Shown here: positions 14,875 to 28,397 of the stretch, piece by piece
Layout: each line of letters starts with the position of its first letter
Position numbering within the stretch: position 1 is the stretch's first letter
Source: Candidatus Woesearchaeota archaeon
GTDB taxonomy: Archaea > Nanobdellota > Nanobdellia > Woesearchaeales > GW2011-AR4
Length of the DNA stretch: 46,522 nucleotides
NCBI GenBank assembly: GCA_016187495.1
Contig: JACPJP010000011.1
Span: forward strand, 1 to 46,522
Reading direction: 5' to 3'
Position numbers and translations under genes: made by a program
Notes under the pieces: model-generated
What the model was told of the DNA's origin: nothing
Databases searched by the model: none
The model's input: the letters and a program-made list of their open reading frames with translations, nothing else

Positions 14875-15771
14875 ATGGAAAAGATAACATGTCGATATTG
14901 CAAAAGTGAAAATACTGTTAAGAGAGGATTAAGCCAAACCCAAAATAGAGGCAAACAGCAAAGGCACTTATGCAAAGATTGTAAGAAGACATTTATTTTA
15001 GATAATGGCTTTTGGAAGAAAAAGAACAGCGAAGCCAAGATTACAGCAACTATAGACCTTTACTTTTCTAATCTCTCAAGCAGGAAAGTAAGAAACCACT
15101 TTAGAAGGCATTGGGAGCATAATGCCTCTCATGTTACCGTTTTGAATTGGTGCAGGGAATATACTTTGAAAGTCAGCAAATTCATAGATACCCTAAAGCC
15201 ACAATTAAGCGGTCAGCTTTATGCAGACGAAACAGAAATCCCAAGAGGATGCAACACAAAAAGAAAGGGCGGGGATAAATTTTGGTGTGCGGTAGATTGG
15301 GGAACGAGATATATTAACGCTACGCTTTACAGCCCTAATCCTCAAAATATGGAAGATGCAGTAAGCTTTATGGCAAAAATTAAGCAGTCAAATGATAAGC
15401 CAAAATACATTCAGACAGATGCCTTAACTTTTTACCCAAGAGCATTTACAAAAGTATTTTATAATAACATTCGGAAAAAAGATGAAAGAGTAAAGCATCT
15501 TGTAAATAATGTTTCAAAAACAGGAAAACATAATGTAAGAATAGAAACAGTTTTCTCTAAAATAAAGGACAGGGTAGATGATTTTAGAGGGATTAAAGCA
15601 TTATGGTCAGCACCAATATTAATGCAGGGAATAATATTACAGCATAACTATATCGAGGCTCATACTACGACTGGAAAGATTCCTGCGGAATTGGCAGGGA
15701 TAAAATTAGATGTTGAGAAAAATAGGTGGTTAGGGCTTATACTTTTATCCCAATCTGCTCAACTTCCTTAA
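14875..15771 (+). CDS. DDE transposase (IS6/IS240-like) with N-terminal zinc ribbon
   Basis: 298 residues. A zinc ribbon (CRYC, 6-9; CKDC, 33-36) precedes a helical DNA-binding region and the catalytic core: Asp118 (LYADETEI), Asp182 (YIQTDALTF), Glu224 (RIETVFSKIKDR). The FWCAVDWGTRYI strand and the FRGIKA tail resemble IS6-type enzymes, though the family call is not firm. The catalytic residues are intact, yet I find no terminal inverted repeats. The upstream region is instead a structured, five-operator divergent promoter, and the last 35 bases overlap a convergent gene. It may be a stranded or domesticated copy. Confidence 0.85.
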   Translation: MEKITCRYCKSENTVKRGLSQTQNRGKQQRHLCKDCKKTFILDNGFWKKKNSEAKITATIDLYFSNLSSRKVRNHFRRHWEHNASHVTVLNWCREYTLKVSKFIDTLKPQLSGQLYADETEIPRGCNTKRKGGDKFWCAVDWGTRYINATLYSPNPQNMEDAVSFMAKIKQSNDKPKYIQTDALTFYPRAFTKVFYNNIRKKDERVKHLVNNVSKTGKHNVRIETVFSKIKDRVDDFRGIKALWSAPILMQGIILQHNYIEAHTTTGKIPAELAGIKLDVEKNRWLGLILLSQSAQLP

Positions 15772-26460: not shown

Positions 26461-26568
26461 GAATACTGGTAATAGGGAGCCTAGTATATAAACCTTTCGG
26501 TCATTGATAATCAATAACAGTAATCTTTATATATAAGCAAGGCTTGTCTTTTCCTTATAGTATTAGTG

Positions 26569-26733
26569 GCTTCATCCAAAAAATCTGCTTCGCAGGGTTG
26601 CCATCGGTTCGCACCCTGCTGGAAAATGCAAAGAGCGGCGCCTCCCCGTAAGGGACGTCCCCCTCCGCTTGGCAATTGTTTAGTTTATAGGTGCTCACAA
26701 AATTGATGGCAACCTTCATTTTTTGGATGAAGC
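26569..26733 (+). ncRNA. Structured element E, copy 1 (candidate leader RNA or MITE)
   Basis: Closed by a perfect 16-bp stem (GCTTCATCCAAAAAAT with 26718-26733). An inner 10-bp stem pairs GGTTGCCATC (26596-26605) with GATGGCAACC (26705-26714). An apical arm pairs AGCGG with CCGCT around TCCC/GGGA (26643-26655). Blocks GTTCGCAC, CCCCGTAAGGGAC and GCTCACAAA recur in copy 2. A TATA box (CTTTATATATAAG, 26525-26537) would start RNA ~15 bases before the element. The next gene begins 24 bases after it, so it may be that gene's leader. No transposase found with these ends. Confidence 0.65.
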
Positions 26734-26757
26734 GAGTACTAGTTAAAGGCTTATAAA

Positions 26758-27387
26758 ATGTTTGATATAGATACTGAAAATAAAATTGTGGATTTTATCA
26801 AGAAAAGCCCTTTAGGAGTTACTTCTAACGATATTGCTAGATACCTAGGTCTTAACAGAATGACCATGACCAAATACCTTGCTATCATAAAAGAAAAAGC
26901 TTTGATAGACTTTAAACAATTTGGAATGGCTAAATTATGGTATATTCCAGTAAACTTGACTAAAGAAAGCTTTTTTAGCAAAATAATGTCTAACATAGCT
27001 ATAAAAATGCCAGAAAATGAATTTAAAGAGCTTTCTGAAAAAGTCGGAATAAGCCTTGGAGAGGGAATAAACCAGATGTATTTAAAGTTTAATGGGGCAG
27101 AGAAGCTTAGCATTGACCAAATTTCTAATGCCTACGAGGATATTGGAAAGAAGCTAAATGGCGGTTTTAAAGCAAAGCTTGGAAATGATAAAATTTCTGT
27201 GGAGATTTTACAAAATCCATTTGAGCAAAGCAATGTTAAAGCGATGAACAGGATCCTAAGCGCGGTTTTTGCTAAAATAGCAGCTTTAAATCTAGGTTAT
27301 GCAAGGGCTGTTGTTTCAGAGCAAGAAGGCAGCAACACAGTTATTGATGTTTATTTGAAGAAAGTAGAGTCAAACCTAAGTGCTTAA
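26758..27387 (+). CDS. Winged-helix protein with C-terminal sensor-like domain (209 aa)
   Basis: N-terminal winged helix (KIVDFIKKSPLGVTSNDIAR, then YLGLNRMTMTKYL, about 8-45). A C-terminal alpha/beta domain carries LSEKVGISLGEGINQMYLKF and ends with AALNLGYARAVVSEQ ... VIDVYL. The tail resembles the methanogen output domain or V4R-like sensor folds, but the match is loose and there is no cysteine cluster. Probably a transcription regulator. Its only nearby promoter appears to be upstream of structured element E1, which would then be its 5' leader. Confidence 0.75.
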   Translation: MFDIDTENKIVDFIKKSPLGVTSNDIARYLGLNRMTMTKYLAIIKEKALIDFKQFGMAKLWYIPVNLTKESFFSKIMSNIAIKMPENEFKELSEKVGISLGEGINQMYLKFNGAEKLSIDQISNAYEDIGKKLNGGFKAKLGNDKISVEILQNPFEQSNVKAMNRILSAVFAKIAALNLGYARAVVSEQEGSNTVIDVYLKKVESNLSA

Positions 27388-27503
27388 GAGATTTTCTTTG
27401 TAAAATCCTTTATTTCTTCAAATAATGGTTAGTAATAACTCTATCTTCTCATGGCGGTAAAAATATGTGAATATTTTTAAATTGTAGAGGCATACCAAAA
27501 CAT

Positions 27504-28052
27504 ATGCCCACAATAGACGAATTGGTAAAGCAGTTGGCAGAAACAATTGCCGCACGTAATGAAACTGAAATAAGAGATTACATGCTCCAACACATGAGAG
27601 TTTTGCCTGCCAATGAAGAGTATACTAGACAGGATGTTACTCATTTTGTTGTTGCATCAATAAAAGTCGCTAAATTATACGAGAAAGCTTGGCAAGCACA
27701 CACAAATGCACACACAATAAACGCAATGAGTTCATCAGAGTGGAGAAGAGCCGCAGATGACTATGAGAAAATTACTGGAGTTAGTTCACCAGTTCAGCTA
27801 GTAAGGATGTATCTAGCGCTAGAAAGACAAATAATATCAAATTTATCGGATGCTGTCGATGAACTTTACCCTCGCAGCAGAGTTAAAGGCGAAAGGTTAA
27901 TAGAAATAATGAGACAATTGCCCGTTATTGCAGGAGTGTTGGGCCGCTTAGATGCGGCAATAAAGAATGAGCGGGATGGTGTAAAAAATTACCTCGATTT
28001 TGTCGAAATCTCTATAAAACCGAGCTATAATAATGCTGGAGGAAAAGGCTAG
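27504..28052 (+). CDS. Helical protein of unknown function (182 aa)
   Basis: All-alpha by composition (MPTIDELVKQLAETIAARNE; RLIEIMRQLPVIAGVLGRLD). No membrane segment, metal site or known motif. An A/T-rich TATTTTTAAATT at about 27472-27483 lies ~25 bases before the ATG, so leaderless. Stands alone between the winged-helix gene and structured element E2. Composition (more Arg and His than neighbours) is slightly different. Confidence 0.7.
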   Translation: MPTIDELVKQLAETIAARNETEIRDYMLQHMRVLPANEEYTRQDVTHFVVASIKVAKLYEKAWQAHTNAHTINAMSSSEWRRAADDYEKITGVSSPVQLVRMYLALERQIISNLSDAVDELYPRSRVKGERLIEIMRQLPVIAGVLGRLDAAIKNERDGVKNYLDFVEISIKPSYNNAGGKG

Positions 28053-28118
28053 CAAGGTTAAGTGTTTTATAATTTAAATTTCTTCGTTTGGGGATAAGCC
28101 ATATGATTTTTATGAAGC

Positions 28119-28295
28119 CTAAAAAACGGTGGCATTGAAAAGTCCTCGCAAAGCTTCTATAATATTTCGGGTTGCCGTCGTTCGCACTTACTGTTTTAGC
28201 GAATGTTGACATCCCCGTAAGGGACTTCCACTTCTGTATGGCACTGGAAATATAGATAAATCGCTCACAAATTGATGCTAACATCCATTTTTTAG
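28119..28295 (+). ncRNA. Structured element E, copy 2 (candidate leader RNA or MITE)
   Basis: Outer stem CTAAAAAACGG (28119-28129) with CCATTTTTTAG (28285-28295), one mismatch. Inner stem GTTGCCGTC (28171-28179) with GATGCTAAC (28274-28282), where an A-T pair of copy 1 is replaced by G-T. Conserved blocks GTTCGCAC (28180), CCCCGTAAGGGAC (28213) and GCTCACAAATTGATG (28263). About 40 extra bases sit between the two stems compared with copy 1. TTTTATAATTT upstream (about 28062-28072) is a plausible TATA box. The PLP-enzyme gene starts 102 bases downstream. Confidence 0.62.
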
Positions 28296-28397
28296 ACACA
28301 CCCTTTTTTAGACGTTTTATTCTTATAAGAATATTTCTTTCAGCAGATTATTTAAAATAGGAATAGTAAGCATATTATTTTATCATTAAAAAATTTA

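Follow-up and report, generated by a model that had tools for sequence, protein, structure and literature searches.

Two related structured elements, E1 and E2, lie in the window analysed here, i.e. the whole stretch of 46,522 nucleotides of Woesearchaeota DNA. A preliminary description had left it open whether they are leader RNAs such as riboswitches, a stand-alone non-coding RNA, or MITEs, and the question raised by this locus is which of these they are. Our analysis indicates that E1 and E2 very probably belong to a family of non-autonomous transposons (MITEs) from one DPANN order (Woesearchaeota) that inserts at the edge of promoters.

A family of related elements in one archaeal order

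E1 is located on the + strand at positions 26568-26734, between direct repeats at 26559-26567 and 26735-26743. E2 is an older copy with decayed ends at about 28118-28302 on the + strand, with its core at 28169-28286. The three conserved blocks that were first noticed in these elements (GTTCGCAC, CCCCGTAAGGGAC and GCTCACAAA) are all present in both, and so is the change from an A-T to a G-T pair in the inner stem. The long terminal stem, which had been described for both, is present in E1 but degenerate in E2. In the own draft genome (778 kb in 31 contigs, with a completeness of 67%), a nucleotide search detected 8 copies including E1 and E2, and after a search for terminal inverted repeats (TIRs) and with a covariance model there were 10 strong copies, 1 distant relative and 1 fragment. 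The copies in this genome have lengths of 152-212 bp and none of them contains a transposase; a multi-copy occurrence of this kind is what is expected of a MITE. The distant relative (L235, G000:C9:45540-45664) has a new outer stem (ATGTGTTTAGCAGC/GCTGCTAAACACAT) and an apex of the same kind, and adjoins a lone MITE-type TIR.

The preliminary description had proposed a covariance-model search in archaeal genomes and Rfam. With the resulting model, R1, matches (E≤0.001) were obtained in 70 of 194 relatives, many of which have more than 10 copies, and about 60 matches at this threshold were found in the Woesearchaeota MAG NC_groundwater_1854_Pr3_B-0.1um_45_49 (G113). Across the class, 34 of 378 genomes gave a match, and 33 of these 34 belong to the own order. 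The view that E1 and E2 are genuinely related is thus borne out by the 10 strong copies in the own genome, by the 70 matching relatives and by a covariation that exceeds that of shuffled alignments (see below). A strict pattern of the apex had no match in viral contigs, and the matches of a loose DNA pattern in genome contigs and viral contigs were mostly due to chance, with L025 being a locus in a true carrier genome. A search against Rfam at relaxed thresholds returned only a tRNA in the window, and no match at E≤1 in 20 loci of the family. The family is therefore without a counterpart in Rfam, in agreement with the original remark that it was not recognised as a known one.

The ends of the copies are those of a mobile element

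When the first copies were aligned, the interior was found to be common to them, but the ends were not. Most copies are bounded by TIRs of 13-17 bp, which follow the theme GGCTNTGTNNNAAAAT (GG[C/T]T..GT...AAAAT). The 5′ TIR of E1 (GGCTTCATCCAAAAAAT, 26568-26584, + strand) is complementary to its 3′ TIR at 26718-26734, and the identical TIR bounds copy L003, where the flanking 9-bp target-site duplication is perfect (ATTTTTATC on both sides). Copies L002, L004 and L007 end in GGTTGGTGCGAAATT and L005 ends in GTGTCTAAAAAAT, each pair of ends forming an inverted repeat, and the 3′ end of E2 (TTTTTTAGACACACC) resembles the TIR of L005. Direct repeats outside the TIRs were likewise found at L002 (GGAACAAAT twice) and at E1, where the 9-bp sequence AGTATTAGT at 26559-26567 is repeated with one mismatch as AGTACTAGT at 26735-26743. 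This layout holds widely in a set of about 100 copies drawn from some 30 relatives: 45 of the 75 copies with a clear TIR are flanked by a duplication of 8-10 bp (mostly 9 bp) with at most one mismatch. A small hairpin (ctgcttcgcag, 26585-26595 on the + strand of E1) with a CTCGCTTCGCTC-like sequence occupies the same place in most copies, always on the side of the 5′ TIR. Comparative sequence analysis establishes with high confidence that the family is a mobile element of the MITE type with IS5-type ends and promoter-edge insertion.

Several copies depart from this layout. L246, L253, L257, L261 and L322-L324 have no IS5-type TIRs; in genome G161 (L257, L322, L323 and L324), the core is found within a repeat with ends of its own, partly beside a second, inverted core. 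L347, L348 and L349 carry extra palindromic hairpins in the stem or the apex, with the flanking complementarity being retained. Lastly, L346 (G082:C91:1847-3578) measures 1.7 kb and is bounded by the same TIRs. It contains no transposase gene, but a gene for a wHTH-nucleotidyltransferase (MntA-like) and a gene for a HEPN-domain protein. This cargo is possibly a toxin-antitoxin pair riding on the element.

Autonomous IS5-family elements share the ends

Transposases that match PF01609 above its cut-off and that are encoded between MITE-type ends were found in genomes G002 and G080. The best NCBIfam model for the partner transposases is NF033579 (transpos_IS5_2), with scores of 120 and 135 that stay below the cut-off of 140 bits. 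A protein search with the G080 enzyme detected relatives in 55 of the 194 genomes, many at contig ends, as is expected for collapsed repeats. The autonomous IS5-family elements are about 900 bp long, lack the core of the MITEs and end in GGCTCAGTAGAAAGTCT, GGCTCTGTTCAAAATC, GGCTCTGTCCTGAATC, GGCTGCGTTGAAAATC and similar sequences. Two of them are flanked by 9-bp duplications (CTTAATATT in G192 and CATAAAACC in G147). Furthermore, the autonomous elements L394-L409 share a structured leader between the TIR and the start codon, in which a CAGCCGTTAGGCTG hairpin is followed by GGGGGTGGGG..CCCCACC. This leader possibly controls translation of the transposase.

Ends of IS elements and MITEs that match within one and the same genome were observed in G113 and G080. 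In G113, the TIR GGCTCTGACGAAAAT is common to the ends of the IS elements L436 and L438 and to the MITEs L441 and L442. The first type of IS element in this genome ends in GGCTCTGACGAAAATC, as do the 5′ ends of L441 and L442, and the second type (L437) ends in GGCTCCGGTGAAAAAG, which matches the 3′ ends of the MITEs L439-L441. L441 is therefore a chimera with one end of each IS type, and this is direct evidence that ends were exchanged while the core was kept. Altogether, the target duplications, the TIRs shared with autonomous IS5-family elements and the dozens of copies favour the MITE among the readings that had been offered initially. We infer that the IS5-family transposases of this order act in trans on the ends of the MITEs and thereby move them.

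The own draft genome, which is 67% complete, yielded no IS5 transposase whose TIR matches, and some genomes that carry the element have no PF01609 match, so that other transposases or a loss must be assumed there. Transposases of the PF13610 type were considered as mobilisers and dropped, because matching TIRs were not found around them. The same is true for the IS6/IS1-like transposase encoded in the window at 14875-15771, around which MITE-type inverted repeats were not found. The product of this latter gene has an N-terminal zinc-binding domain, and relatives of it occur in 38 of the 194 genomes.

Insertion at the upstream edge of promoters

Many copies, duplications and transposases with the same ends had been named as the findings that would identify a MITE, and all of these were obtained. 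However, the insertion sites, which had been expected to be random, are not, as they lie at a fixed distance from a TATA box. The distance from the junction to the start codon of the flanking gene shows a sharp peak at 40-49 bp (44 of 118 flanks). In 90 flanks, 39 outward TATA-like hexamers were located at positions 15-17, compared to about 0.5 per position elsewhere. Among the 45 copies confirmed by a duplication, 43 have on at least one side a TATA box that starts 12-20 bp outside the junction, mostly at 15-17, and that faces away from the element. The consensus on this side reads [9 bp duplication][RAAA..][TTTWWAAA], which corresponds to a BRE plus a TATA box; on the opposite side there is nothing comparable. 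An IS903-like palindromic target was rejected for this reason, the motif being one-sided.

The offset was reproduced with 20 duplication-confirmed copies of G113, which had been left out when a weight matrix was built from these BRE/TATA sites. Their scores peaked at the same offset, with a mean of 1.6 versus about -10, and 9 of the 20 scored above 4 at the expected position. It should be noted that the strict TATA hexamer is present in only 8 of these 20 copies, because several of the promoters read TATATAA or TTTAAG instead of TTTAWA, and the peak in G113 thus rests on the weight matrix. The autonomous IS copies show the same TATA spacing as the MITEs. Comparison of the copies therefore shows the insertions to lie immediately upstream of a neighbouring gene's BRE/TATA, at a position that is precise to the base pair.

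The genomes of DPANN archaea are compact, and 84 of 87 copies are intergenic. In genomes that are this dense in genes, the placement at promoter edges could reflect nothing but selection against harmful insertions, and the removal of such insertions could indeed account for part of it. As a full explanation we consider this highly improbable, since the offsets have a precision of about 1 bp and are tied to a BRE/TATA on one side only, and since the spacing recurs in an independent genome (G113) and for the autonomous IS elements. Insertion that is aimed at the promoter is the preferred view: the transposase would find its site through promoter-bound TBP/TFB, which is the targeting that we infer, or by reading the BRE/TATA sequence itself.

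The position of the promoters argues against a leader RNA

According to the preliminary description, each element has a TATA box placed to start an RNA at its left edge and precedes a gene on the same strand. This raised the possibility of a cis-acting, riboswitch-like leader RNA of the downstream gene that is transcribed from this TATA box. The conserved loops and the strong covariation of the core would suit such a function, and E1 and E2 are indeed intergenic and in front of same-strand genes. The latter, however, does not extend to the family: over 87 sites, the orientations relative to the flanking genes are mixed (-E+ 31, -E- 20, +E+ 19 and +E- 11) and the flanking genes are unrelated. 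Hence, a position on the same strand within the 5′ UTRs of related genes was not found across the family. The TATA box on the left side of E1 (26525-26537) is not part of the element and is located beyond its target duplication, and in a survey of 91 copies, TATA-like sites oriented into the 5′ end did not outnumber those in other positions or orientations (24 versus 25-31). The idea of a dedicated inward promoter was therefore abandoned.

What is conserved across the family is a TATA box that points away from the element, usually placed between the element and the gene. At E1, the TATA-like box CTTATAAA of the winged-helix gene (26750-26757, + strand) starts 15 bp from the junction and points away from E1, at the offset seen in the family-wide profile, and a TATA-like site is also present between E2 and the PLP-enzyme gene (28348-28360, + strand). 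This probably places the promoter of the winged-helix gene downstream of E1 and speaks against a leader RNA. The start codon annotated for this gene, an ATG at 26758, would fall inside the CTTATAAA promoter, and an in-frame GTG at 26788 appears to fit better as its start. Considering also that target duplications and shared IS ends indicate mobility, we regard the probability of a leader RNA as almost negligible.

The folded core

Between the exchangeable TIRs of 13-17 bp, the core of about 117 nt forms one long interrupted hairpin. In E1 (all on the + strand), the 5′ arm of helix P2 (26596-26605) pairs with its 3′ arm at 26705-26714, as supported by covariation: all 10 pairs were changed on both sides and 98.6% of the cells were paired in about 100 copies. 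Conserved block 1, which forms the 5′ arm of helix P2b with a UC/UC internal loop (26606-26614), and conserved block 3 (GTGCTCACAAAATT, 26691-26704), which comprises the 3′ arm of P2b and a bulge, were delimited by the core alignment and mutual information. The apical box CCTCCCCGTAAGGGACGTCCCCCTCC (26641-26666) sits on helix P3. In E2, also on the + strand, the 5′ arm of P2 (GGTTGCCGTC, 28170-28179) pairs with 28274-28283, and the alignment of the copies places the apical box TCCCCGTAAGGGACTTCC at 28212-28229.

In 101 distinct copies, 95.3% of the cells were paired, compared to 23-46% in slid registers, and changes on both sides were found in 552 cells versus 153±10 in shuffles. The 101-copy alignment was fitted to the model and so leans toward it, but the first nine-copy MAFFT alignment agrees. 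A lack of covariation in further copies had been named at the outset as the result that would speak against a structured element; instead, the covariation was above all 500 shuffles on the main measures. The helix pairs also rank top in mutual information, including internal pairs that are far from the TIRs. The conserved loops consist of the apical CCCGTAAGGG with the pyrimidine run that follows it, TC/TC mismatches and AAATT.

With its strong covariation and its conserved loops, the core, but not the element as a whole, is a candidate for a stand-alone non-coding RNA; the near absence of G-U pairs does not fit this reading. One version is that the core is a trans-acting or processed non-coding RNA that was spread by transposition and whose apex forms a short triple helix of the pyrimidine motif. 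The loops are conserved while all stems change, and the core was retained while the ends were swapped. Moreover, a pyrimidine strand covaries with the purine strand of the apical hairpin in a manner that is suggestive only: 82 of 89 copies have a third strand that matches in parallel register, versus 69.6±2.2 when shuffled, and the antiparallel alternative, with 64 of 89, was discarded. This suggests that the apex is a short pyrimidine triple. However, the test for parallel covariation was not significant after correction for the tree (about 4-5 changes in the same way and about 0 in the opposite way, with a median p-value of 0.125 and a range of 0.06-0.6). G-U pairs slightly exceed A-C pairs (30 versus 15), but they are very few next to the 1950 Watson-Crick pairs among the compensatory changes. 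Furthermore, copies without an apex were amplified in G176, where at least 9 of them are identical, which implies that transposition does not require the apical box. On balance, a trans-acting or processed RNA appears somewhat doubtful.

The compensation by almost purely Watson-Crick pairs would be the natural outcome of mutual repair between inverted repeats or of a function as DNA, and such repair could produce it without any RNA function. The core could thus be a DNA device, i.e. a cruciform or a hairpin of single-stranded DNA that either helps transposition or persists through replication repair between long inverted repeats. The stems run on into the TIRs, and in L276, L270 and L307 the internal loops have become fully paired. 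Against this, template switching leaves the conserved unpaired boxes and the mirror-type covariation of the apex unexplained, and the autonomous IS5 elements move without the core. We hold a DNA device to be a possibility, albeit a tentative one.

Our best guess is that the core acts as a folded strand in some role other than transposition, the RNA and DNA readings being close to equal. It might perhaps work as a folded single strand, and in read-through transcripts of the upstream gene its hairpin would shield the adjoining promoter, and in this it would be comparable to ERIC and Correia elements. A DNA-level role as a cruciform or as single-stranded DNA is about as likely as such a hairpin in the transcript. 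A combined scheme holds that the IS5-type transposases read bound TFB/TBP, that IS elements and MITEs consequently land at the upstream edge of promoters as a safe haven, and that the MITE core functions as an RNA with an apical triple helix and has exchanged its transposon ends while its fold was kept; taken as a whole, this scheme is rather unlikely.

Relation to known elements and significance

Prokaryotic MITEs, including SM1-SM4 of Sulfolobus, are short, non-coding, multi-copy and intergenic elements with TIRs and target duplications that are mobilised in trans and whose transcripts are predicted to fold, according to a review (PMC10969869). The family of E1 and E2 matches these general features, but differs from the MITEs described there in that one core was kept across many genera of an order while the TIRs were exchanged. 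The passages of the review that were consulted do not name Woesearchaeota among the archaea with MITEs. Correia/NEMIS elements are described in this review as intergenic, with palindromic cores that are conserved, fold within transcripts and in some cases contain internal inserts. The elements studied here share such a core with them and with ERIC, but differ from both in hosts, ends and duplications. ERIC, too, has a conserved palindromic intergenic core that folds in transcripts, and we know of no fixed promoter distance for either ERIC or Correia/NEMIS.

The nearest precedent for the promoter-edge insertion is the bacterial p-MULT group (TnGBS/ISLre2/ISKra4), the members of which insert 15-17 bp upstream of the -35 box and, in analogy to Ty3, were proposed to contact the initiation complex (PMC3942029). 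The likeness extends to the fixed distance of 15-17 bp upstream of a promoter element and to insertion in either orientation by elements with near-perfect end repeats. However, p-MULT elements use bacterial sigma-A promoters and Mutator-type transposases, whereas the elements described here are found at an archaeal BRE/TATA and their partners are IS5-family (DDE_Tnp_1) enzymes that match PF01609 and IS5-type NCBIfam models. Integration of the Ty3 retrotransposon is placed by the transcription-initiation machinery (PMC3942029). Yet Ty3 is a retroelement at Pol III genes, and for the archaeal IS elements and MITEs a contact with the initiation complex is a presumption. An archaeal promoter-edge insertion of this kind was not found in the open-access literature that we searched. 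As for the transposase family, the IS903 subgroup of IS5 elements generates 9-bp duplications and has a TIR, GGCTTTGTTGAATAAAT, that looks similar to that of the MITEs. IS903 prefers a palindromic target, in contrast to the asymmetric target observed here, and the NCBIfam IS5_2 scores of the partner enzymes are below the cut-off.

Targeting of the transcription machinery as a way to avoid harm is known for transposons of yeast and for a few bacterial families. Base-pair-precise insertion at an archaeal BRE/TATA in uncultured DPANN archaea makes the recognition of archaeal promoters by transposases directly testable, and the insertions mark promoters in genomes for which there is no transcriptome. 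The core represents a large, order-restricted structured element without an Rfam entry, in which the stems vary freely and the loops are fixed. It is therefore a good test case for separating an RNA function from the maintenance of a palindrome at the level of DNA.
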